DNA of 45,826 nt from Clostridia bacterium (GTDB lineage: Bacteria > Bacillota > Clostridia > Christensenellales > CAG-314), in the NCBI GenBank assembly GCA_017409765.1, contig JAFQSA010000012.1, forward strand, positions 1-45,826, given 5' to 3'. Within the stretch, counting starts at the first letter, position 1. Each line of letters starts with the position of its first letter. The position numbers and the translations under genes are program-made. Below, in pieces: positions 35,687-45,826 of this stretch. The notes under the pieces are model-generated. The model worked only from the letters and a program-made list of their open reading frames with translations, did no database searches and was not told the DNA's origin.

Positions 35687-35724
35687 AATAGTCTAACCTG
35701 AACATTGGTTCAAATTAGACTATT
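35687..35724 (-). terminator. Terminator of the serine recombinase gene
   Basis: AATAGTCTAA (35687-35696) pairs with TTAGACTATT (35715-35724), and an inner TGAAC/GTTCA stem (35699-35703, 35708-35712) continues it. On the minus strand a T-run follows. The recombinase TAG stop lies inside the stem. It could also stop plus-strand hsdR transcription. Confidence 0.88.
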
Positions 35725-37261
35725 CTTGGCGGGATGTCGATGTTTGCATTCTAAAATCCAAACTGGTTTTTAGAACGGTGTTTGTGTCGTCAAGATCAAC
35801 CAAATCTACGGTTTTTCCACCCTTTATGTTAAAGTAGACCACAGTATGGTCATCGCTGACAAACACTTGACTAACCAAGTTATCTACAATTTTTTGTTGG
35901 TATTCCTTATCGTTTCTATCTCCTTTTAGCAACTCTGCTACAAAATCAATGATGTCCTTTTTAGTTATTTTGTAGCCACGTTCAAGTTCCAATAGTGCTT
36001 CTTGGTATTTCAAATCGTTAAGAAGAATTTCGTACTCCTCCATCTTCTTTTCGATGGTCTCTTGAAGAAGCCTGCTTTTTGCTTTTACAAAAGAATCAGC
36101 AAGTGCTTCAACCTCTCTTTGAGCATTTGCTATTTTCGTTTGGATTGACTTCAGATTGCTGACATCAGTCCTTTTTTCATAGTAGTTCAAAACATCAGTC
36201 GCAGCAACTTCTACATTTGCAGGGTCGCTTAGGAAGTCACAAACGCAATTTACTACGTATAACTCGATAGCATCCTTGTGTTCTCTACGTTTGTCACATT
36301 TGCCTCTTCTTTTCTTTTTGCAAGTATAGTAGTGGTATTCATATCCTTGCTTGCCAACACCTCCGTCCGAAACCATTTCTGAGCCACAATGAGCACAAAA
36401 TAGCTTACCAGACAAAAGATATGTTAGCTTTGCTTTGTTCATACCACCTAGGAAGTATTGGTTCTTTTTCAAGCGTTCTTGAACTCTCTCAAACAATCCT
36501 TTGTCTATAATTTGTGGATACATATTGTTGCACAAACGTCCACCAAATTCAAATTCTCCAGTGTACTTTCTATTAACCATCCAGTTATCAAAGGTCCTGC
36601 CCTTGAAGGGCTTGCCTTTATACCTGTATCCTTTCTCATTCAAGGTATCGGCTATTTCTTTTTTGGACTTACCTAAATCGTATTGCTCAAAAACAAATCT
36701 AATAATCTCTGCCTCTTCTTCCTTGATAGCAACACGCTTTATAAACTTGCCAGGCTTGCCGGAGATAGGTTCAAGGTCTATTTTGTAGCCATACACTAAA
36801 TATCCACCACAAAACGTTCCATTGGCAACACTTGTATCAAGGCCATCTCTAACACGTTTAGAAAGGCGCTTGCTGTATTTTTCAGCGTTCCACTCCAAGA
36901 ACATTTCATAGAACTCACCACCTTCATCCTCAGCAATAGGCTCCAATGCAGACAGCACCCTAATACCATACTTTTCTTTCAGCATTTCTTTGTACATAAT
37001 GCTGTCTCTACGGTTACGAGCAAATCTGTCAAACATGTACACGATTATATATTGAAAAGCCCCGCTGTTTGCATCGGCAATCATACGTTGAAATCCGGGA
37101 CGAGCATCATTCGTTCCCGTTTTTGCTTTGTCAGTATATATGTTAATATTCTTGAATCCCTTGCTTTCGGCAAATTCTCTACAAATACGAACTTGCGCTT
37201 CAATGCTTTGTTCATTTTGTCCGTGAGAACTAAATCTTGCGTAAATTACACAACTTTCCAT
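35720..37261 (-). CDS. Large serine recombinase (integrase) of the element
   Basis: The 513-residue protein has an N-terminal resolvase catalytic domain (1-150) with YARFSSHGQ (Ser11 as nucleophile) and the Arg-rich FDRFARNRRD. A recombinase DNA-binding domain (about 160-270) follows, then a zinc beta-ribbon (CAHC and a CKKKRRGKC pair, about 305-340) and a coiled-coil region (about 365-430). The length fits phage or transposon large serine integrases, which join attP and attB without ligase cofactors and need a directionality factor for excision; no obvious excisionase is seen here. The AAGGAGT site lies 7 bases before the ATG. It reads outward towards the left end of the element. Confidence 0.95.
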   Translation of the reverse strand: MESCVIYARFSSHGQNEQSIEAQVRICREFAESKGFKNINIYTDKAKTGTNDARPGFQRMIADANSGAFQYIIVYMFDRFARNRRDSIMYKEMLKEKYGIRVLSALEPIAEDEGGEFYEMFLEWNAEKYSKRLSKRVRDGLDTSVANGTFCGGYLVYGYKIDLEPISGKPGKFIKRVAIKEEEAEIIRFVFEQYDLGKSKKEIADTLNEKGYRYKGKPFKGRTFDNWMVNRKYTGEFEFGGRLCNNMYPQIIDKGLFERVQERLKKNQYFLGGMNKAKLTYLLSGKLFCAHCGSEMVSDGGVGKQGYEYHYYTCKKKRRGKCDKRREHKDAIELYVVNCVCDFLSDPANVEVAATDVLNYYEKRTDVSNLKSIQTKIANAQREVEALADSFVKAKSRLLQETIEKKMEEYEILLNDLKYQEALLELERGYKITKKDIIDFVAELLKGDRNDKEYQQKIVDNLVSQVFVSDDHTVVYFNIKGGKTVDLVDLDDTNTVLKTSLDFRMQTSTSRQE

Positions 37262-37288
37262 CTTGTTTACTCCTTATCTATTTTGTTC

Positions 37289-37434
37289 CAAATTGTCTTT
37301 GCGAACGAACTGAACTTGCCAGTAGGGCGCATTGTCAAGGAAAAAGACAATGGCTTATGCTTAACGAGGGATAACCATTGTCCCTTTACAATGTGGACTA
37401 ATGGCGACACCCAACCCCAAGCAAAGACAATTTG
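37289..37434 (-). ncRNA. Compound palindromic leader of the recombinase mRNA
   Basis: A perfect 14-bp outer inverted repeat (37289-37302 with 37421-37434; core AAATTGTCTTTGC) encloses a second stem (37316-37325 with 37398-37407, one mismatch and one G-U) and two inner hairpins (37330-37336 with 37346-37352; 37376-37381 with 37388-37393). The whole folds as a four-helix multibranch of about 146 bases. It would lie in the 5' leader of the recombinase transcript, ending 13 bases before the ribosome site. It might control recombinase translation, or serve as a DNA site for the recombinase or a partner. I know no named family that matches. Confidence 0.5.
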
Positions 37435-37476
37435 CAAAATAGTTTTTAGAAATTTCTAATTATTTCTTCAAATCGC

Positions 37477-37505
37477 TTGACTTCTACTCCTATTATAGCT
37501 AAAAT
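37477..37505 (+). promoter_or_regulatory. Promoter of the LexA-like repressor gene
   Basis: TTGACT (37477-37482), a 17-base spacer and TAAAAT (37500-37505). The start of transcription would fall near 37512, at the edge of the palindromic operator. Confidence 0.7.
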
Positions 37506-37520
37506 ATAATCATAACGCAA
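37492..37520 (-). promoter_or_regulatory. Divergent promoter of the serine recombinase gene
   Basis: On the minus strand TTGCGT (37520-37515), a 17-base spacer and TATAAT (37497-37492). The -35 box is one half of the palindromic operator, so a bound repressor would block it. The leader to the recombinase ATG would be about 225 bases. Confidence 0.6.
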
Positions 37521-37532
37521 CAAAAATTGCGT
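37515..37532. promoter_or_regulatory. Palindromic operator, likely LexA-like repressor site
   Basis: ACGCAA-CAAAAA-TTGCGT is a perfect 6-6-6 palindrome. It overlaps the start point of the repressor promoter and the -35 box of the recombinase promoter. Repressor binding is inferred from position. Confidence 0.65.
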
Positions 37533-37560
37533 ATTAAATTTAAAAAAGGTAAAAATTTTT

Positions 37561-38169
37561 ATGAGAGTAATGAATGAGAGTAATTTCAGCGCAATAATTG
37601 CTTTTATAGACGACTATTACAACAAACATGGCAAAGTTCCTACTCAACAAGAGATTGCCGATGCAGTACACCTTGACAAAAGTAATGTTAACAGAAACTT
37701 GAAGGTCATGCGTGCGCGCGGACTTATTGATATGGATGGCGGTTGGCGTGGAATTAGAACAACCAAGATCCAAAAAAGGTCCGACGAACTGAATTACGTT
37801 CCAGTAGTCGGAACCATTGCTTGTGGTACACCAATGCTTGCAGAGCAAAATATTGATAGATATATCCCAATTCCTAAAGCTCTAACAGGGCATGGAGATT
37901 TTTTTGCATTGCACGCAAGTGGCGACAGTATGATCAATGCAAATATCGATGATGGCGACTTTGTAATAGTTAGACAACAAAACACAGCAAACGAAGGCGA
38001 CATTGTTGTTGCACTCATTGATGACGAAGCAACTCTCAAAAGATATTACCTTGACAGACAAAACAACAAAGTTAGATTGCATCCTGAAAATGACGATATG
38101 GAAGATATGTATTTTGATACCATCAACATTCAAGGTGTGGCAATAAAGGTTGTAAAAGACCTTATTTAA
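37561..38169 (+). CDS. LexA-like self-cleaving repressor
   Basis: The 202-residue protein has an N-terminal winged helix-turn-helix (about 10-65; PTQQEIADAVHLDKSNVNRN) and a C-terminal S24-type autoprotease domain. Ser123 (SGDSM) and Lys160 (ATLKRYY) form the catalytic dyad. Cys88-Gly89 (IACGTP) is the likely cleavage bond. In the family, RecA filaments trigger self-cleavage after DNA damage. As the first inward gene of the element and divergent from the recombinase, it probably silences excision until SOS. ATG 37561 was chosen, with AAAGGT upstream; ATG 37570 is an alternative. It is its own transcription unit with operator control. Confidence 0.9.
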   Translation: MRVMNESNFSAIIAFIDDYYNKHGKVPTQQEIADAVHLDKSNVNRNLKVMRARGLIDMDGGWRGIRTTKIQKRSDELNYVPVVGTIACGTPMLAEQNIDRYIPIPKALTGHGDFFALHASGDSMINANIDDGDFVIVRQQNTANEGDIVVALIDDEATLKRYYLDRQNNKVRLHPENDDMEDMYFDTINIQGVAIKVVKDLI

Positions 38170-38286
38170 CTGCGTTTATGTATAAAGGTCAATATCGTGA
38201 CTTACTATGTGGGCGGATTCCCTAACCCCTGCAATATAGTTTGTCAAATCCAACCGAGAAGTGACTAAGGGAAAGGAGGGTGAAAA

Positions 38287-38469
38287 ATGTATAAGTACAT
38301 CACTTGTCCTCAATGTGGGAAACGTTTGTGTAGGGCAGTTCTTGGAAGTAAGCTTGAAATTACTTGTGCTGCTTGCAAACAAGATTATGTTTCTACCGTA
38401 GATGAAAACGGTGGCGTTCACACATTGCCGATTGATAGTAAAACTATACTTAAAACAAAAAGAGTATAG
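38287..38469 (+). CDS. Small zinc-ribbon protein, Com-like
   Basis: The 60-residue protein has two Cys-X2-Cys knuckles (CPQC and CAAC) about 20 residues apart with CGKRL between, similar in shape to the small Com-type zinc proteins of phages and elements. An AAGGAGGG site lies just before the ATG. The 117 bases between lexA and this gene contain GGATT/AATCC and TTCCCT/AGGGAA pairs that could fold over the ribosome site, but no gene. It may bind nucleic acid; function unknown. Confidence 0.72.
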   Translation: MYKYITCPQCGKRLCRAVLGSKLEITCAACKQDYVSTVDENGGVHTLPIDSKTILKTKRV

Positions 38470-38518
38470 ACAATCACATTTAATAACTAAATATTTTGAG
38501 AAAATGAAAGAATAAATC

Positions 38519-38724
38519 CTGTATTTGGCAAGCCAGTAGGGCTACGAAGCGACCACCAAGAGGAACTTTACATTTTCAAAAATTGTTGTTATCTACTTGT
38601 AAAGGTAGATACAAGAGTGTCCGTATTTGGCTAGTCAATTAAGACTTCAAAAGCGACCATCAGAGGGCCTAACAATAGCTAAATCACTTTTAGATAAGTG
38701 GTTTTCTATTGTTGGCTCTTTTTT
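38519..38724 (+). ncRNA. Tandem structured RNA with terminator, unidentified family
   Basis: Two copies of one motif lie at 38521-38565 and 38623-38668. Each has GTATTTGGC, a 4-bp hairpin, a GCGACCA box and a GAGG end. The hairpins differ but keep pairing: AGCC/GGCT in copy 1 and AGTC/GACT in copy 2, a compensatory change that supports RNA structure. After copy 1 a TATCTAC/GTAGATA hairpin has a loop (GTAAAG, 38599-38604) complementary to CTTTAC (38566-38571), a possible pseudoknot. After copy 2 a long stem ends in a T7 run. It is either a cis attenuator for the downstream genes or a separate small RNA. Confidence 0.6.
38667..38724 (+). terminator. Long-stem terminator after the tandem RNA motif
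   Basis: GCC-AACAATAG (38667-38678, one bulged T) pairs with CTATTGTT-GGC (38706-38716). An inner ATCACTT/AAGTGGT stem fills the loop, and seven or more Ts follow. Confidence 0.85.
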
Positions 38725-38748
38725 TATGCCCAAAATCCAATAGTAACC

Positions 38749-38788
38749 CCCGATAATTGTGGTTTAGCCCACGATTGTCGGGCTTTTT
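38749..38788 (+). terminator. Second terminator before the sigma-like gene
   Basis: A 14-bp stem (38749-38762 with 38769-38782; CCCGATAATTGTGG with two G-U pairs) has a 6-base loop (38763-38768), then C and a T5 run. Two terminators in a row before 38843 mean that downstream genes need antitermination or their own promoter. Confidence 0.82.
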
Positions 38789-38842
38789 CATATCTGCTTC
38801 CGGCAGTCGTTACAAAACGAAATTAAAAACCGGAGGTTTATT

Positions 38843-39289
38843 ATGAAAAAAGTAACAACAAAAATTCAAGACAAAAATGGCTACATTAGAACGATCCGAG
38901 CTTATTTGGACGATAAAACATGGGAAATTCTTTCTACTCTTACTGAAGAAGAAAGGCATCAATACATTATTGATGAGCATTATGGAGTCTTTCTCAATGA
39001 TTTTACTGAAAGAAGGCGTCACATTTCATTGAATAGAGCATTAGATGCAGGTCATGATTTTGAAGACAGACTATTTGATATGGATGATGCCCTAGATGAA
39101 AAGATTTTGTTGACTAGGTTACAAGAAGCTTTAAAGACATTGACATCGGAACAACAATGGCTTGTTAATGAGTTTTATTTCAAAGGACGTTCTAATAGGG
39201 ATATCGCTAAAGAATTGGGCGTTGATAAATCTGCTGTTAGTCATAAATTGGAAAGAATTTTGAAAAAATTAAAAAATTTTTTGAATTAG
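38843..39289 (+). CDS. Sigma-70 region 4-like regulatory protein
   Basis: The 148-residue protein has a C-terminal helix-turn-helix (about 95-146; FKGRSNRDIAKELGVDKSAV, then SHKLERILKKLKN) matching sigma region 4 as found in many element-borne sigma-like proteins. The N-terminal half (1-80) carries no clear region 2, so it may not act as a full sigma factor. It could direct RNA polymerase to element promoters. A CGGAGG site lies eight bases before the ATG. It stands behind two terminators. Confidence 0.8.
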   Translation: MKKVTTKIQDKNGYIRTIRAYLDDKTWEILSTLTEEERHQYIIDEHYGVFLNDFTERRRHISLNRALDAGHDFEDRLFDMDDALDEKILLTRLQEALKTLTSEQQWLVNEFYFKGRSNRDIAKELGVDKSAVSHKLERILKKLKNFLN

Positions 39290-39367
39290 ACCGTCAACTT
39301 TCGCTATTTCCGTGTGTTATAGGTGAAGGGTGAAGAACTCTTCAAATCTAAAAAGGAGGAAATACCT

Positions 39368-39616
39368 GTGAGTGAAAGGTATCAAAAGGTTGCATATATA
39401 GGGCTGCGCAATCCAGATGGTTCTTACCTAGCAAACGTTCCGTTATATGTCAAAGTAAGTGAACTAAATCAAAATGGTCTAACAGATATGCAAGAAGAGC
39501 TTATACACAAAATTACAGGTATTATGCTCCAACATTATCAACAAAGGTTTGGCGAGTTTATAGACAGTAAGAAGAAGGAAAAAGCCAACGAGTTGATGAA
39601 CAAATCTAAAACCTAA
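39368..39616 (+). CDS. Small element protein, unknown function
   Basis: The 82-residue product starts at GTG 39368, eight bases after AAAAGGAGG; an upstream in-frame GTG at 39323 overlaps no good site. It is mostly charged, with YIGLRNPDGSYLANVPLYVK near the start and a Lys/Glu-rich helical tail. I do not recognise the family. It lies 15 bases before the next gene in the same series of GGAGG-led small genes. Confidence 0.65.
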   Translation: MSERYQKVAYIGLRNPDGSYLANVPLYVKVSELNQNGLTDMQEELIHKITGIMLQHYQQRFGEFIDSKKKEKANELMNKSKT

Positions 39617-39631
39617 AAGGAGGAAAAAGCA

Positions 39632-39877
39632 ATGAAGACTGTAGATTACTTCAGCGAAGCGGATAACGTTTATCGCACAGAAAACTACATTGTATGCCAA
39701 AAGGTCTCTCTTTGTAGGAGTGGCGAAGGTAACACCTTGATGCTAAGTCAAGATACATACCTTGCTCGCACGCATAAAAGAGATGCCGAGTACGAGCTTG
39801 TGTATAAAGTTCGTGGCAGAAAAATCAACGGAAAGCGCATGCGTTCAGGCACTTATTCACGCAAGTACGAAGATTAA
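39632..39877 (+). CDS. Small basic element protein, unknown function
   Basis: The 81-residue protein has a strong AAAGGAGG site. It is predicted beta-rich with a basic end (KVRGRKINGKRMRSG), possibly binding nucleic acid. No family was recognised. Confidence 0.65.
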   Translation: MKTVDYFSEADNVYRTENYIVCQKVSLCRSGEGNTLMLSQDTYLARTHKRDAEYELVYKVRGRKINGKRMRSGTYSRKYED

Positions 39878-40119
39878 CCCTAGCATGACATAGTTAACAA
39901 CTACATTTTATGCACTGACAGTTGCGTGGTCTATATTAGATAAAGTTGGCCGACTACCACAATACGAGTGCCCGGACGTGATGTTCAACTAAGGTTCTTA
40001 ACTATCTCATAAAACTACAACTCAATAAACCATTCCAGCTGAGCCAACGGCAACACGGGCAACAAAAGATGAGCTACCAGACTTAACGGGCATACAAAAT
40101 TTAATCATAAGGAGGACCA
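39878..40119 (+). other. Non-coding gap of unknown role in the element
   Basis: These 242 bases lack a convincing gene and are richer in G and C than the flanks. TGCCCG (39969-39974) and CGGGCA (40087-40092) could close a 120-base structure, and AGTTGGCCGACT is palindrome-like. A structured RNA, replication origin or transfer origin are all possible. I see no strong match to any. Confidence 0.35.
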
Positions 40120-40125
40120 TTGAAA

Positions 40126-40413
40126 ATGGCAAAAAGCAAAACTAATGAAACTAGGGATTTTTCCCAACGTAGATGGATGAAGCCATCTGTACGTGCAAAA
40201 GGTTATGCTGAAGAGCGCAAAGCAGCTGTTCACAAGCGTGGCCCAAAGAATGGTGAACCATTGTCTGAATACGACAAGGGCATTCGTTCCGGTTACCTAC
40301 TTGCACAATCCGATAGTACTGGTATCTACAAGTACAAAAAGGCATTGGGCGAAGGTAAGACCAAGCAACAAGCAAGAGACATTTCCAGACAAAAAGGCAA
40401 AAAGAAAAACTAA
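40126..40413 (+). CDS. Small lysine-rich element protein
   Basis: The 95-residue protein starts at ATG 40126, ten bases after GGAGG; TTG 40120 in the same frame is an alternative. It is strongly basic, with SEYDKGIRSGYLLAQSD in the middle and a QKGKKKN end. A DNA- or RNA-binding role is possible. No family was recognised. The next gene follows after 16 bases. Confidence 0.65.
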   Translation: MAKSKTNETRDFSQRRWMKPSVRAKGYAEERKAAVHKRGPKNGEPLSEYDKGIRSGYLLAQSDSTGIYKYKKALGEGKTKQQARDISRQKGKKKN

Positions 40414-40429
40414 AAGGAGGTAATGAGTC

Positions 40430-40768
40430 ATGGAAAACAAGATTTTTGTTCAAAGAGAAACATTCAAAAAGAACGGTAAGGAGTTCTATACATACTTCAT
40501 TAAAGGTCAAGTACGTGGTCGTGAAGTAAGGGTGGCTGTTATGCCCCCAGATTTTGGTGGTTACACCGTTTTGGACATTGTGTTTGACGGTGCAAACCAA
40601 GCAGAACTTGTAGTATCTCCATATGAAATGACTGACGCAAAGGGTAAAGTCCTTCGTGGTGTTACGTATGGAGTACGTTCTTGTGACGAAGATGGTGAAA
40701 TCTACGAATGTAAGATTAAGCCTGTTCGCACATCAGATAAAGACATGCTCAGCATGATCTTGCGCTAA
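40430..40768 (+). CDS. Small element protein, predicted beta-rich, unknown function
   Basis: The 112-residue protein has an AAAGGAGG site. The first part (VQRETFKKNGKEFYTYFIKG, then QVRGREVRVAVMPPD) alternates like an OB-type or single-strand-binding barrel, but I cannot confirm that. It is soluble, and lies between a basic protein and a membrane protein in one operon. Confidence 0.62.
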   Translation: MENKIFVQRETFKKNGKEFYTYFIKGQVRGREVRVAVMPPDFGGYTVLDIVFDGANQAELVVSPYEMTDAKGKVLRGVTYGVRSCDEDGEIYECKIKPVRTSDKDMLSMILR

Positions 40769-40786
40769 TAAAGGAGGTAAAACAAC

Positions 40787-41251
40787 ATGAGTTACTATGA
40801 TGCTCACATCAAAAACGACAAAGCAAAGTGGGTTGTTACATTCATTGTAATGGCATTGCTTGTCGTAGCAGTTATTGGACTTGGCGTTGGCCTTTCCAAC
40901 CAACTCCCTGAAGAAATCAATGCAAGCGACTTCAAAATTGGTGCATTGAATAGTCAAGGTCAGTTTGTGGAAGACAATGCGTCCATTGTAACCAAGAGCC
41001 TTATTGATGTAGAAGGACTCGAAATTGCCATTGACGAAGATGCCGAAGTTACATACAAAGTATTCTTCTTTGACGAAGGCAAGGAGTTCATCTCCAATAC
41101 AGATGCTCTTAGTGCAGACTTTGATGCAACTTCTATCCCTGCAAATGCAGCATACGCAAAGGTGGTAATTGTACCAACCGAAGATGCCGAAGTAGGTGCT
41201 TTTGAAGTAGCCAAGTATGCAAAAATGCTCACTATTACTCTTGGCGAGTAA
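40787..41251 (+). CDS. Single-pass membrane protein with small outside domain
   Basis: The 154-residue protein has one N-terminal helix (about 17-37), with residues 40-154 outside, acidic and beta-rich. No lipobox. It resembles the protein at 42949 in layout (short cytoplasmic start, one helix, beta-rich outside part). A terminator follows at once. It could be a surface component of a mating or attachment structure; no family was recognised. Confidence 0.68.
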   Translation: MSYYDAHIKNDKAKWVVTFIVMALLVVAVIGLGVGLSNQLPEEINASDFKIGALNSQGQFVEDNASIVTKSLIDVEGLEIAIDEDAEVTYKVFFFDEGKEFISNTDALSADFDATSIPANAAYAKVVIVPTEDAEVGAFEVAKYAKMLTITLGE

Positions 41252-41262
41252 TTAACATTACT

Positions 41263-41297
41263 AAAGCCTTTGTCTATCTTAGGCAAAGGCTTTTTCT
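41263..41297 (+). terminator. Rho-independent terminator
   Basis: AAAGCCTTTG (41263-41272) pairs with CAAAGGCTTT (41284-41293) and a T-run follows. It separates the small-gene operon from the InlB-repeat gene; the next ribosome site begins only about 10 bases later, so some read-through is likely. Confidence 0.9.
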
Positions 41298-41312
41298 TAA
41301 AAGGAGGAAAAC

Positions 41313-42635
41313 ATGAAAACATTTATTCAAAACAACAAACGTAAGTTGCTCTTGATTCTTTCAGCAGTTTTGGTTGCATGCACATTTTGTGGCTTTATGC
41401 TTACTGCAAGTGCGTTTACTCTTGCAACTGGTTGGACTGTTACATACAGAACCGACTGTGAAGCAATTATCTCAACTACTACTGAGGACTTGGATACGGT
41501 AACGGCTTATCCAGTATCCGGCTCTGTTAACGAATTCGGTATTGTAGTTAACGGACAAGTGTATGGTAACGCAAATGTAGCAAGTACTTTGACGGCTAAT
41601 AAGCTTATCCTTGGTACTGTAGGTGAAGACTTTAACGAAGGTTCCAACTACGAAGACTACGCCATTTATTACAAGCTCTCTACGGACACATACTTCACAC
41701 GTGCAAACACAAGAACAATTACAACACCAAGCAGCAAAAAGGTACAAATTGCACCGGTAACAATTACCGAAGCTGGTACTTATACCATTTGTGCTGTTCA
41801 ATGTAGTTATACAGTCGATGCAGACGATGTAGAAGAATATTTCACCCGTTCCGCGTTCTTGACTGTAACAGTTAACCCAGATTACACATTGCCAGAGAAT
41901 CCAACAAAGACTGGTTACACTTTTAGTGGTTGGTACACAGACCAAGCATGTACAACATTGTTTGAGGGTGACACCATTACAAGCGACCTTGTATTGTATG
42001 CTGGTTGGACAGCAAACAATTACACAGTTCATTTCCACTTCGTTGCTGGTTCGGAAGAAAGAACTCAATCTTTTGTTTACGATACTGCACAAACACTTGC
42101 TCCAAATGAGTTTGAATACACGGGTTACACATTCAAGGGTTGGGCAACTTCAACGCCTGCTACGTCAGTTAAATATACTGATGAACAGGAAGTTAAGAAC
42201 CTTACTGCCGATGCCGATGGTCACGTGCATTTGTATGCAGTATGGGCCCCAACATCTTTCACTGTAGCATTCAACGCTAATGGCGGTGAAGGTCAAATGA
42301 CATCACAAGTAATTACGTACGATGCCCCAACTGCGCTTAGTGCTTGTACATTTACAAGAGAGGGCTACATCTTCAAAGGTTGGGCTACAAGTGCTGATGG
42401 TCCAGTTGTATATGACGACAAAGCTATTGTAAAGAACTTGGCGTCCAATCCAAACAATCCTGTACAACTTTATGCAGTTTGGGAGATCATCCAATGCAAC
42501 GTAACATTCATTGTTGATGGTAAAGTGTATGCGGTTGTAACTGTAGATTACGGTACTCCTGCTGAGGAAGTTATTTCTTCTGCAGTGAACACAGCTTTGT
42601 ACAATGTTGTCGAAGAAGAACTCCCTTTAGAATAA
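41313..42635 (+). CDS. InlB-repeat secreted protein, zero-frame (released) form
   Basis: The 440-residue product has a signal peptide (about 1-34, cleavage after TASA likely; an LVAC lipobox-like run at 20-23 is a less likely alternative). Residues about 40-185 are beta-rich and unknown. Three InlB-B/Listeria-Bacteroides repeats follow (GYTFSGWYTD, GYTFKGWATS, GYIFKGWATS), then a partial fourth strand set (CNVTFIVDGKVYAVVTVDYG). The zero frame stops at TAA 42633 and gives a form without a membrane anchor. A slippery site and predicted pseudoknot span this stop, and the -1 frame encodes an anchor (see 42629). GGAGG precedes the ATG. A role in surface attachment or cell contact during transfer is inferred. 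Confidence 0.85.
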   Translation: MKTFIQNNKRKLLLILSAVLVACTFCGFMLTASAFTLATGWTVTYRTDCEAIISTTTEDLDTVTAYPVSGSVNEFGIVVNGQVYGNANVASTLTANKLILGTVGEDFNEGSNYEDYAIYYKLSTDTYFTRANTRTITTPSSKKVQIAPVTITEAGTYTICAVQCSYTVDADDVEEYFTRSAFLTVTVNPDYTLPENPTKTGYTFSGWYTDQACTTLFEGDTITSDLVLYAGWTANNYTVHFHFVAGSEERTQSFVYDTAQTLAPNEFEYTGYTFKGWATSTPATSVKYTDEQEVKNLTADADGHVHLYAVWAPTSFTVAFNANGGEGQMTSQVITYDAPTALSACTFTREGYIFKGWATSADGPVVYDDKAIVKNLASNPNNPVQLYAVWEIIQCNVTFIVDGKVYAVVTVDYGTPAEEVISSAVNTALYNVVEEELPLE

Positions 42636-42687
42636 CCTCTGATCTTACAATTCGACTAACAAGAACAGAGGTTGGAGAAATAGTCGA
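42623..42687 (+). promoter_or_regulatory. Programmed -1 frameshift signal: slippery heptamer and H-type pseudoknot
   Basis: C CCT TTA (42623-42629) fits the X XXY YYZ rule in the frame used by the gene. After a four-base spacer, stem 1 is AACCTCTG (42634-42641) with CAGAGGTT (42666-42673), 8 perfect pairs. The loop base run TCGACTA (42652-42658) is the exact complement of TAGTCGA (42681-42687) after stem 1, giving stem 2 of 7 pairs. Together they form an H-type pseudoknot, the classic stimulator of -1 frameshifting. The zero-frame stop lies between. The three independent parts and the useful -1 product make chance unlikely. Confidence 0.75.
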
Positions 42688-42808
42688 TGACATCGAAGAA
42701 AACGTTTGGCTGAATACAGCAACTAAATTTCTTGGAGTAATTTTAGTGCTTTGCTTTGTCCTTTGGATAGCAACACTAATTAAGAAAGCAACCAAGAAAA
42801 AGCGCTAA
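42629..42808 (+). CDS. -1 frame extension with membrane anchor of the InlB-repeat protein
   Basis: Read in the -1 frame from AGA 42629, 59 residues follow before TAA 42806. They are an acidic linker (EVGEIVDDIEENVW), a hydrophobic helix (FLGVILVLCFVLWIATL) and a basic stop-transfer tail (KKATKKKR). This is a textbook C-terminal anchor. The frame has no ATG, GTG or TTG and no ribosome site before the helix, so it can hardly be a separate gene. Frameshifting would give a 498-residue anchored protein. A sequencing or mutational frameshift is the main alternative. Confidence 0.72.
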   Translation, partial: RITSDLTIRLTRTEVGEIVDDIEENVWLNTATKFLGVILVLCFVLWIATLIKKATKKKR

Positions 42809-42820
42809 GCCAAAATACTA

Positions 42821-42849
42821 ACGGCTTACAGTTTATGTAGGCCGTTTTT
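42821..42849 (+). terminator. Rho-independent terminator after the frameshift gene
   Basis: ACGGCTTAC (42821-42829) pairs with GTAGGCCGT (42837-42845, one G-U), followed by a T-run. It lies 12 bases after the -1 frame stop, not after the zero-frame stop, which supports the extension belonging to the gene. Confidence 0.88.
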
Positions 42850-42854
42850 ACTTA

Positions 42855-42922
42855 AGCGATGCTTTGTGTGGATAAATACATGTTTTATTAGACACTACAT
42901 GGCTACCATATGATGCATCGCT
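42855..42922 (+). repeat. Inverted repeat in the leader of the 42949 gene
   Basis: AGCGATGC (42855-42862) and GCATCGCT (42915-42922) are perfect complements enclosing 52 bases. The second arm ends about 12 bases before the GGAGG site. It may be a leader structure or operator; no match to a known element. Confidence 0.5.
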
Positions 42923-42948: not shown

Positions 42949-43521
42949 ATGACAGGAAAAACATTTGGCAAAGTGATTGCTTTCGTTGCAATTTGCTTTG
43001 TTATTATACTTGTGTTTGGTGTTATTAGCAAATACACAAGTGGTTTTACAAGCAGTTTCAAGACCTTCTACATTCAGGCAAACGGTAAAGATATTTTCAC
43101 TACTGCCAGCAATTATGTATTAAGTCCAGAAGAGGAACTGCATGTAGAAGTAAGATACACATTCACTAATGAAAACGAAGAGTTTCGTGGCTACAATGTA
43201 AAGATAGTGCCTAATAAAGTACAAGATAATGACTTTAATGTTGTAACTAGTACAGGAACGTATTCTTTCCAAGCAGAAGAAGATTATACTAAGGCTTTTG
43301 ATATCCAGAAATACAATACGTATTTTACTATCCAACCCAAGGGCGCTCTTAATGACATGCTTTCAAGTTATTTCGGTGGCGAAGTTGAAGACTGCACAGA
43401 TAACGTCTATGAAAACATGTTTGTTTTGGTGGTAAGTTCGTATAACGAGGAATCCATTGTAACCATCTATTTCACCATTGGCGAAACCCAAGATACCGGG
43501 CAGGTGATTGCTTATGACTAA
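42949..43521 (+). CDS. Single-pass membrane protein with outside beta-rich domain
   Basis: The 190-residue protein has an N-terminal helix (about 8-28), with residues 35-190 outside. The sequence HVEVRYTFTNENEEFRGYNV suggests an Ig-like sandwich. No lipobox or sorting signal. Its stop overlaps the next start by eight bases (ATGACTAA), so it is coupled to the large surface protein that follows. Layout resembles the protein at 40787. A role in an element-encoded surface complex is inferred. GGAGG precedes the ATG. Confidence 0.7.
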   Translation: MTGKTFGKVIAFVAICFVIILVFGVISKYTSGFTSSFKTFYIQANGKDIFTTASNYVLSPEEELHVEVRYTFTNENEEFRGYNVKIVPNKVQDNDFNVVTSTGTYSFQAEEDYTKAFDIQKYNTYFTIQPKGALNDMLSSYFGGEVEDCTDNVYENMFVLVVSSYNEESIVTIYFTIGETQDTGQVIAYD

Positions 43522-45436
43522 AGCAAAAACAGGTTTTACACTTGTGCTTTTGGTGGTAACCTTGCTGTGCTCAGTAATGCCAGTAAGTTATGCACAGGAA
43601 GTAGGTGGCTTAGATAAAAGTGACGTTATGGACGACTTGTTTACAGGTAACGCATTTAACATTTTGGACTACCCGTATAACCCTTTTGGCTCAGTACAGG
43701 TAATGAACTTTGTGGAGTATTGCTACTCCTACAAAGCCAATATGAAAAGCAACTATGGGTTGTACATATATGTGTATAACCCACAACAGTTGGCTTTTGT
43801 GGAGAACTCAGGACAGAACAAAATACAGATTGCGACTGCTTTCGATGCTGACCACAATGCAATAAAGTATGAGAAGTTTCCACTTGAGTGTGCAAGTATG
43901 TCTAAGGGGGATTACTACCAACTATTCTATAAATTCAAGGTAGTTGGTGCTGAGAAACTCTTGGATGTATTAAACAGTAACAAAAGAAGGTATTTCATTT
44001 CCGGCATTGAGTTGCTTGAAAAAGGCAACACAAACGCAACGGAATATGGCATTGGTGGCACGTATGTGTTTAGTGGTTATGCAAAGGGGTATGGACCTGA
44101 CGTCAATGCAGAAAGCACTCTTGCTTGTGATGTGGAAGAGTTTGAAACCATCAATTTGAAGGTACATCATACAAACTACCGAACAGGTATGTCGAGCTTA
44201 GGTAACAACCACTACAACGAAGTAAATACCGTGTATTTTTCTGTGCCTAATAGGTACTTTGAAGAGTATGGCAATCTACAAAAGATTGCTGCTGAATGGT
44301 GGGAGTACAAAACAAAGATGGCTGTTGTGACAGCAAATGAGGAGTTCTACAACAAGATTTTGCCATACGTTGGTACACAAATTGGTGACGGAGTAACAGC
44401 GCCATTTTCCGTGTATTCTGGTGCGAACTCTACTGTATCTATGAACGGATACATAACTTGTAGATACCAATGGTCGTTCAATAAGTATATTGGTACAACC
44501 ACATCAGTGCTTGGCCCAACTGGTAGTTATTCAACTGACTATGATGCAAAGATTATTCCCTATGCGTTCTATAGCCCAACAGTTAACCTTGATACCGTCT
44601 TTGACTTTCTTTGCAAAAAGGTAACTGCTGGCAGTGTTGAAAGTAACGTTGTGCAAGATTGGATCTACAACTACTCCAACGACCTTGGACATGGCTACAT
44701 TGACTGCAATGGCAGACAAATAAGCAAAGACTTGTTCGAAGAATACGTAGATGAGGGACGAACCATGGGCTACAACAATGTAGAAATAGACCTTGGGGAC
44801 ACCTTTGACCTTGACAGTTACGACAGTAACCATACTTGGTGGGACAAGCTGTGGGACTTTGGTCTAAGTTGGCCTACAACGGATGAAGAACACAAAGACG
44901 TTGCACCTATCCACATCTTGGATGGCAGTGAACTAACAGGATTAAAAGGGGACGTATCTACGAATTTGCTTGTAAACAAGGAACACTTAGCAGATTTGCA
45001 AGACTATTACTCAGCAGAGACAGCCAAGGGTAACAAGGTAGTTTTGTTTAGATTTGCCAAGACGGACTACTACTCAGCACCTGCAGTTTACACGGGATAT
45101 GAAGGTAGCATTCCAGAGTCCGACACATACGTAGCATCTGAAACAGTCTTTCTCGATTTCGATATCCTCTCCCTAACTTTCCACAAAGACGGTGTGTACA
45201 AGGTAATTCCAGCCGTAAGTAATCCCATTGACATTGTTAATGGTTTCACGCCCCCGGATACAGGAAAAGACATAGGAAAATCTCTTCTTTCCATACTGCT
45301 CTTAATTGTTTTGTTGGTGCTACTCATCATATGCCTACCTTGGATTTTGAAGGTGGTTTGGTTCCTTATTTCCACCCCTTTCAAAGCACTAGCAAACCTT
45401 GCAAGTGACGACAAAGACAAGGGGGATAAGCGATGA
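43514..45436 (+). CDS. Large secreted, C-terminally anchored surface protein of the element
   Basis: The 640-residue protein starts at ATG 43514 (overlapping the previous gene) with a signal peptide ending near VSYAQ. A long outside region (about 30-590) has no recognised repeats or catalytic motif and is Tyr- and Asn-rich. It ends in a strong helix (SLLSILLLIVLLVLLIICLP) and a second amphipathic or membrane stretch before the basic tail KDKGDKR. It should display a large ectodomain. It resembles the placing of adhesins or mating-pair proteins in Gram-positive elements, but no family was recognised. Its stop overlaps the next small gene (ATGA). Confidence 0.72.
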   Translation: MTKAKTGFTLVLLVVTLLCSVMPVSYAQEVGGLDKSDVMDDLFTGNAFNILDYPYNPFGSVQVMNFVEYCYSYKANMKSNYGLYIYVYNPQQLAFVENSGQNKIQIATAFDADHNAIKYEKFPLECASMSKGDYYQLFYKFKVVGAEKLLDVLNSNKRRYFISGIELLEKGNTNATEYGIGGTYVFSGYAKGYGPDVNAESTLACDVEEFETINLKVHHTNYRTGMSSLGNNHYNEVNTVYFSVPNRYFEEYGNLQKIAAEWWEYKTKMAVVTANEEFYNKILPYVGTQIGDGVTAPFSVYSGANSTVSMNGYITCRYQWSFNKYIGTTTSVLGPTGSYSTDYDAKIIPYAFYSPTVNLDTVFDFLCKKVTAGSVESNVVQDWIYNYSNDLGHGYIDCNGRQISKDLFEEYVDEGRTMGYNNVEIDLGDTFDLDSYDSNHTWWDKLWDFGLSWPTTDEEHKDVAPIHILDGSELTGLKGDVSTNLLVNKEHLADLQDYYSAETAKGNKVVLFRFAKTDYYSAPAVYTGYEGSIPESDTYVASETVFLDFDILSLTFHKDGVYKVIPAVSNPIDIVNGFTPPDTGKDIGKSLLSILLLIVLLVLLIICLPWILKVVWFLISTPFKALANLASDDKDKGDKR

Positions 45437-45570: not shown

Positions 45571-45826
45571 ATGACTAAAGCAAGAAAAAACATTTATGTA
45601 GGGCTTACTGTGACTTTCTCGCTGGCGTTTGTTGTTCTTGGTGTGTTCGTGTTCAAAGATTCGTATTTGCGTTTGTGGGAAGCTTTAAGAGATTTACTCG
45701 TATGCTTTAAGTACTATTTCTGCTACATATTCGACCTTGACACCAATTTCGTTTTAGGCATCAACAACCCTTCAAATGTGCTTACGTTTGAGGGGTACTT
45801 GCCTAAAAATTGGGACAGTTTCCAAG
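45571..45826 (+). CDS. Membrane protein, 3' partial, possible start of a transfer-type protein
   Basis: The ATG at 45571 follows GGAGGTG by eight bases. The 85 visible residues have one membrane helix (about 8-28) then LRLWEALRDLLVCFKYYFC and a region ending LPKNWDSFQ at the window edge. This start vaguely resembles the N-terminus of FtsK/TcpA-type coupling proteins in Gram-positive conjugative elements. That is a weak impression from the first residues only; the ATPase part would lie outside. Confidence 0.55.
   Translation, partial: MTKARKNIYVGLTVTFSLAFVVLGVFVFKDSYLRLWEALRDLLVCFKYYFCYIFDLDTNFVLGINNPSNVLTFEGYLPKNWDSFQ

Follow-up and report, generated by a model that had tools for sequence, protein, structure and literature searches.

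To our knowledge, bacteria and their phages offer few examples of productive −1 frameshifting beyond those of insertion sequences, dnaX, csoS2, copA and the structural genes of tailed phages. In dnaX of Escherichia coli a slippery heptamer is combined with a 3′ stem-loop and an upstream Shine-Dalgarno (SD)-like stimulator, and the gene yields two products with a common N-terminus; some bacteria reverse which of the two products frameshifting gives (PMC5009743). In tailed phages (T3, Lactobacillus phage A2 and Listeria phages) frameshifting gives a fraction of a structural protein a C-terminal Ig-like extension, of which in-frame versions occur in relatives, and in the Ebola virus glycoprotein gene recoding by transcriptional slippage decides between a soluble and a transmembrane surface protein (PMC5009743). 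Frameshift-extended phage structural proteins, and a soluble or transmembrane choice made by slippage of the Ebola virus polymerase, are already known from these examples. Filamentous phages of Gram-positive bacteria (Enterocloster, Propionibacterium freudenreichii and Clostridium beijerinckii) have been found via their pI/Zot-type gene, in a paper that mentions neither a frameshift nor an InlB-repeat protein (PMC10061712).

Here we describe a surface-protein gene of inovirus-like Clostridia prophages that very probably contains a conserved site of programmed −1 ribosomal frameshifting, a reading that rests on sequence comparison. As in dnaX, the two products would have a common N-terminus, and heptamer, 3′ stem-loop and upstream SD-like stretch are all present in the four loci with the heptamer A AAT TTT; in E. 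coli dnaX, however, frameshifting gives the shorter product and in the prophage gene the longer, the heptamers differ, and the gene described here encodes a phage surface protein. In-frame versions exist in relatives, as they do for the tailed-phage extensions, but the addition is a membrane anchor instead of a surface domain and the element is inovirus-like. The choice between soluble and transmembrane forms resembles that of Ebola virus, where it is made by transcriptional slippage in an RNA virus, whereas here it would depend on a −1 shift of the ribosome on a gene of a bacterial prophage. The surface-protein operon also sets these elements apart from the Gram-positive inoviruses described so far. 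InlB-repeat proteins of the same prophage group (genomes G147, G400, G071, G106 and G268, and others) share a homologous C-terminal domain, transmembrane (TM) anchor, basic end and operon position, but carry the anchor in the zero frame with no stop before it. In the literature searched, with subscription papers mostly outside it, we found neither a filamentous phage gene reported to be frameshifted nor a frameshift that gives a bacterial surface protein its membrane anchor. If the shift is real, a surface protein of these phages comes in two forms at a fixed ratio, of which gene callers would report the short one only and miss the anchor.

The window, which is the whole stretch of 45,826 nucleotides that was analysed, carries the gene at 41313-42808; all features are on the forward strand unless stated. 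The zero-frame ORF (41313-42635) encodes 440 residues, with an N-terminal signal or hydrophobic segment followed by InlB-type (Listeria-Bacteroides) repeats that match the Pfam family PF09479 over three stretches (E 5.4e-31, 107 bits against a cut-off of 27). This frame terminates ...CTC CCT TTA GAA TAA, and its stop (TAA, 42633-42635) lies one codon past the slippery heptamer C CCT TTA at 42623-42629, with CCT as the P-site and TTA as the A-site codon. The phase of the heptamer with respect to the zero frame is that required for tandem slippage (X XXY YYZ), after which the first −1 codon would be AGA (42629-42631). From there the −1 frame encodes a tail of 59 residues (42629-42808; RITSDLTIRLTRTEVGEIVDDIEENVWLNTATKFLGVILVLCFVLWIATLIKKATKKKR) that comprises a linker, a predicted TM helix (FLGVILVLCFVLWIATLI, 42728-42781) and a basic end, KKATKKKR, before its stop TAA at 42806-42808; the tail was flagged by a hydropathy scan and the exact limits of the helix were set by eye. 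A terminator-like hairpin with a T-run (42820-42851) is found 3′ of the −1 stop. The earlier note on this DNA had proposed a programmed −1 frameshift that joins the InlB-repeat ectodomain to a TM anchor, and its heptamer with the zero-frame end right after it, its 59-residue tail with TM helix and basic end, and its terminator after the −1 stop all agree with our reading of the sequence and its translation; the joining of ectodomain and anchor by such a shift is supported by the five loci described below, which have heptamer, stem and a selected −1 anchor.

Relatives of the gene were sought with the next gene of the operon as bait, which encodes a 190-residue membrane-linked protein (42949-43521) and has homologues in 33 of the 297 genomes searched in the order (that of the window included), and then with the fused C-terminus. 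In two loci of the same genus, G012:C17 (L028) and G013:C4 (L032), an InlB-repeat gene precedes the 190-residue gene and its zero frame stops before a −1 TM anchor. The fused C-terminus gave a third relative, G012:C7 (L051), and a fourth, G027:C118 (L088), that belongs to another genus of the same family, so that the relatives span two genera and all five known loci, window included, fall in one family. In all four relatives the heptamer is A AAT TTT and the very next codon a stop, TAG or TAA. The window differs from them in this, yet the position of the shift is homologous in five of five when the proteins are aligned. Upstream of the zero-frame stop, the −1 frame of G013:C4, G012:C7 and G027:C118 has just three open codons, so the frame would have to change within about 10 bases, and these hold the heptamer. 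No additional frameshift case was found by a class-level search, by IMG/VR searches with P0001 and with profile A1 (built from the fusions), or by a pattern scan for the signal of the relatives; a mechanical scan of 786 distinct ORFs in the loci gathered revealed no other InlB-type case, and the other frames that it flagged had no gene-like context. InlB matches in RUI064 and SUG144 (L084-L087) turned out to be in-frame proteins of another kind.

The in-frame homologues give good support to the view that the −1 tail is a membrane anchor. The window tail is homologous to the −1 tails of the other four loci and, via a joint profile, to the in-frame anchors of relatives; indeed, profile A1 matches in-frame anchored relatives end to end (G400, E 4.7e-10; G147, E 8.9e-10). 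In families f6 and f32, end-to-end matches were found only with the anchor in frame, one of them with an internal TAA. A full-length match to the C-terminal profile on the reverse strand of G207:C36 (2588-2926) contains one in-frame TAA and is possibly a decaying copy. Homologues with an in-frame anchor and no heptamer had been named in advance as evidence against the frameshift; they do exist, outside the family, but they argue that the tail is a genuine anchor rather than that the shift is refuted. In pairwise comparisons of unsaturated pairs among the four relatives, dN/dS is 0.19-0.33 for the −1 tail and 0.18-0.29, a similar range, for the zero-frame part, which indicates purifying selection on the tail; with the window most comparisons are saturated, and the single value obtained is 0.44. 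A tree of the C-terminal region groups the five frameshift forms into one clade with support of 99/99, and the simplest history would be one switch from in-frame to shifted decoding in this family, which was then kept.

Downstream of the window heptamer, the 5′ arm of stem 1 (AACCTCTG, 42634-42641) pairs perfectly with its 3′ arm (CAGAGGTT, 42666-42673), and the two arms of stem 2, TCGACTA (42652-42658) and TAGTCGA (42681-42687), are likewise perfectly paired, just as described when a pseudoknot was proposed for this site. Among dinucleotide shuffles, 1.1% have a stem at least as long as that of the window, starting 3-12 nt past the heptamer; among synonymous recodings the figure is 2.9%, and the 7-bp stem 2 is expected by chance in 1.4% of base shuffles. 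The spacer before the stem is only 3-4 nt, compared with a most studied range of 5-9 nt for −1 sites (PMC5009743), and the 7 nt between the two stems are long for a classical H-type pseudoknot. Since each of the chance figures is modest, the window taken alone is suggestive only, and the real weight comes from the relatives.

Across the five loci a stem of 9-10 bp is found 3-10 nt past the heptamer in every case, in three unrelated architectures. The chance of such a stem is 0.5-2% per locus by dinucleotide shuffle and 0.5-5.9% by synonymous recoding, and random stems are unlikely jointly across the loci. G012:C17, G013:C4 and G012:C7, three of the five that are closely alike around the stem, share a 9-10 bp hairpin 6-7 nt past the heptamer. 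At one position of this hairpin the G-C pair of one locus is replaced by T-A in the other two, and at a second the pair is G-C or G-T. The 9-bp stem of G027:C118 is unrelated to these; it starts 10 nt past the heptamer and has a second hairpin enclosed within it. Stem 2 was not found in the four relatives, where the longest loop complementarity is 2-4 nt and hairpins or a long-range stem are present instead. The pseudoknot is a possible structure of the window (7-bp stem 2, P 0.014), specific to it and not conserved, and the alignment of homologues that the earlier note had put forward as a check recovered the heptamer, a stem, the −1 anchor and one paired G-C/T-A change, but not stem 2.

The upstream region differs between the window and the relatives as well. 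A purine-rich, SD-like stretch precedes the heptamer in four of the five loci, namely the relatives, with duplex energies of −6.2 to −9.5 kcal/mol that are reached by about 5% or fewer of background windows, whereas that of the window is weak (−2.1) and no better than background. SD-like stimulators of −1 sites act at a distance of 9-14 nt (Atkins et al., PMC5009743); the stretches of G013:C4 and G012:C7, at 12 nt upstream, fit this range, and those of G012:C17 and G027:C118, at 4-6 nt, are closer. If the shift is real, a possible pseudoknot in one lineage against an SD-like stretch with a hairpin in its sisters offers a natural comparison of how stimulators are exchanged.

Comparison thus supplies the homologous slip site in five loci, the selection on the tail, the in-frame anchors elsewhere and the prophage context, and from these we infer slipping in cells, its efficiency and its purpose. 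Most ribosomes would probably halt at the zero-frame stop to give the InlB-repeat ectodomain alone, and some would move back by one base, at C CCT TTA in the window or at A AAT TTT in the relatives, stimulated by the 3′ stem and in the relatives probably also by the upstream SD-like stretch; the slipped ribosomes would then add the C-terminal TM anchor with its basic end. As to purpose, we somewhat favour the view that the shift sets the ratio between a C-terminally anchored form and a form without the anchor, the latter being released if its N-terminal segment is cleaved. In the window, the putative signal peptide (residues 1-34, 41313-41414) has a possible cleavage site ASA-F, between ASA and FT, when read by eye, and this N-terminus looks cleavable, so it is plausible that the short form could be released. 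The four relatives have an N-terminal hydrophobic segment without a clear cleavage site (also by eye), and their short form may therefore stay attached by its N-terminus, with the shift adding a second anchor. The switch from released to anchored protein that was originally suggested is thus plausible for the window; in any of the loci release would require cleavage of the N-terminal segment, for which the relatives show no clear site.

Filamentous-phage coat proteins reside in the membrane before assembly, and the anchored form, in the same way, might remain in the membrane or enter the virion. By this analogy, it is an attractive candidate idea that virions take up only the shifted form. We tentatively suggest, as something that may or may not hold, that inovirus-like phages of gut Clostridia use programmed −1 frameshifting to set the ratio of an anchored (virion or membrane) to a non-anchored adhesin and have swapped the heptamer and the stimulator type, an SD-like stretch with a hairpin against a pseudoknot, while keeping the switch.

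The strongest competing explanation accepts the frameshift as real but grants it a single functional product, the anchored fusion, with the shift being a tolerated scar that is kept efficient by its stimulators and does not set a ratio. In other families the same protein is a single anchored product read in frame, so that a short form is no general requirement, and a similar indifference between in-frame and shifted versions of the phage Ig-like extensions has been suggested to reflect chance (PMC5009743). We nevertheless regard this explanation as the less likely one, because the zero-frame stop is kept within 0-1 codons of the heptamer in five of five loci; moreover, heptamer and stem types have been exchanged but decoding has never returned to in-frame, which suggests that the short form has value.

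It is also very improbable that the frame is changed by RNA polymerase, slipping on an A3-4T5 run, instead of by the ribosome. A run of this kind (AAATTTTT or AAAATTTTT) is present in four of the five loci, but the window CCCTTTA has no long run, and a stem, an SD-like stretch and an X XXY YYZ heptamer in phase with the zero frame are in keeping with slippage by the ribosome. Runs of three to five bases are short for polymerase slippage.

Even less probable is a broken gene, i.e. a recent inactivating mutation or an assembly error that has left the tail as a relic. An indel could create such an arrangement, given the in-frame anchors of relatives in other families; in five divergent loci, however, the reading frame is interrupted at one and the same point, each time with a canonical heptamer and stem, the tails have the low dN/dS given above, and one clade at 99/99 implies long maintenance. 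An assembly or indel error at the window junction, which the earlier note had listed among the findings that would count against it, is ruled out by L080 (JAFQEG010000026.1, from a goat-caecum MAG), a separate assembly of the window locus that was obtained from a scan of GTDB genomes: over 6,410 bp (window 36486-42895) it has 2 substitutions and 0 gaps, and the junction is identical. The slip site is kept in five separate gene copies, which also makes a sequencing error very unlikely. Separate translation of the tail, by termination and re-initiation at the zero-frame stop, is the least credible explanation, for although this stop and the −1 frame overlap closely there is no consistent start, the tails of the window and G012:C17 having no ATG, GTG or TTG upstream of the TM helix (for the window, as first noted) and those of G013:C4, G012:C7 and G027:C118 no more than isolated TTGs, none with an evident ribosome-binding site.

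The element that carries the gene is read as an inovirus-like prophage, based on the Zot and G2P-type Rep of its relatives and on a gene order around an ATPase-like gene that it shares with G188. At the edge of the window element is a large serine recombinase (35720-37261, reverse strand; PF00239, PF07508), followed by a LexA-like S24 repressor (37561-38169; PF00717, PF01726), a sigma-70 region 4-like regulator (38843-39289; PF08281) and a 112-residue protein (40430-40768); prophages with this operon have an integrase or serine recombinase at one end. Beyond the 190-residue gene lie a 642-residue surface protein with a signal peptide and a C-terminal TM segment in its translation (43508-45436) and the start of a membrane ATPase-like gene (45580-45826) with a P-loop-like motif, GSMGKKKTT, and a match of E 8e-16 to profile A3. 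The contig ends 247 bases into this longer gene, with the gene order as in G188, and the element's own Rep and ATPase, bar its start, are therefore outside our view.

In G012:C7 a Zot gene (PF05707, 29.9 bits against a cut-off of 20.3) is located about 1.9 kb downstream of the frameshift gene, and its product has 34% identity over 82% of its length to the Zot of bajarodino virus 12, which is classified in the Inoviridae. A G2P-type Rep (PF23343) is found in the G188, G012:C7 and G400 elements. The membrane protein A3 of the window group, which has a P-loop-like motif and occupies the place of Zot, gave no match to the Zot profile. We call the window element inovirus-like, and not a strict member of the Inoviridae, since its Rep is beyond the contig and its ATPase family has no Zot profile match; what had been described as a mobile-element adhesin can, on the evidence of the relatives' Zot and G2P-type Rep, be narrowed down to a surface protein encoded by a prophage of inovirus-like type. 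In genome G012 (L108, L038) a frameshifted InlB-repeat gene is present in both of two distinct prophages; where one of these has the Zot gene, the other encodes a different P-loop membrane protein.

Searches of the operon proteins against PHROGs and NCBIfam yielded no informative match, and the AlphaFold model of the 708-residue ATPase-like protein is poor (pLDDT 43). The model of the small, conserved 112-residue protein is confident and consists of two beta-beta-beta-alpha units. A search with this fold gave weak matches, including SSB proteins and Orf1 of the Gram-positive phage B5, none with E below 0.001, so the suspected ssDNA-binding role is only a lead. The G122 homologue of this gene (L012, 1077-1422) is in two overlapping frames, as could result from a sequencing indel, decay or other recoding. 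The G013 prophage (L036, 5162-7363) adjoins a cluster of eight tRNA genes, and its integrase lies next to tRNA-Gly.
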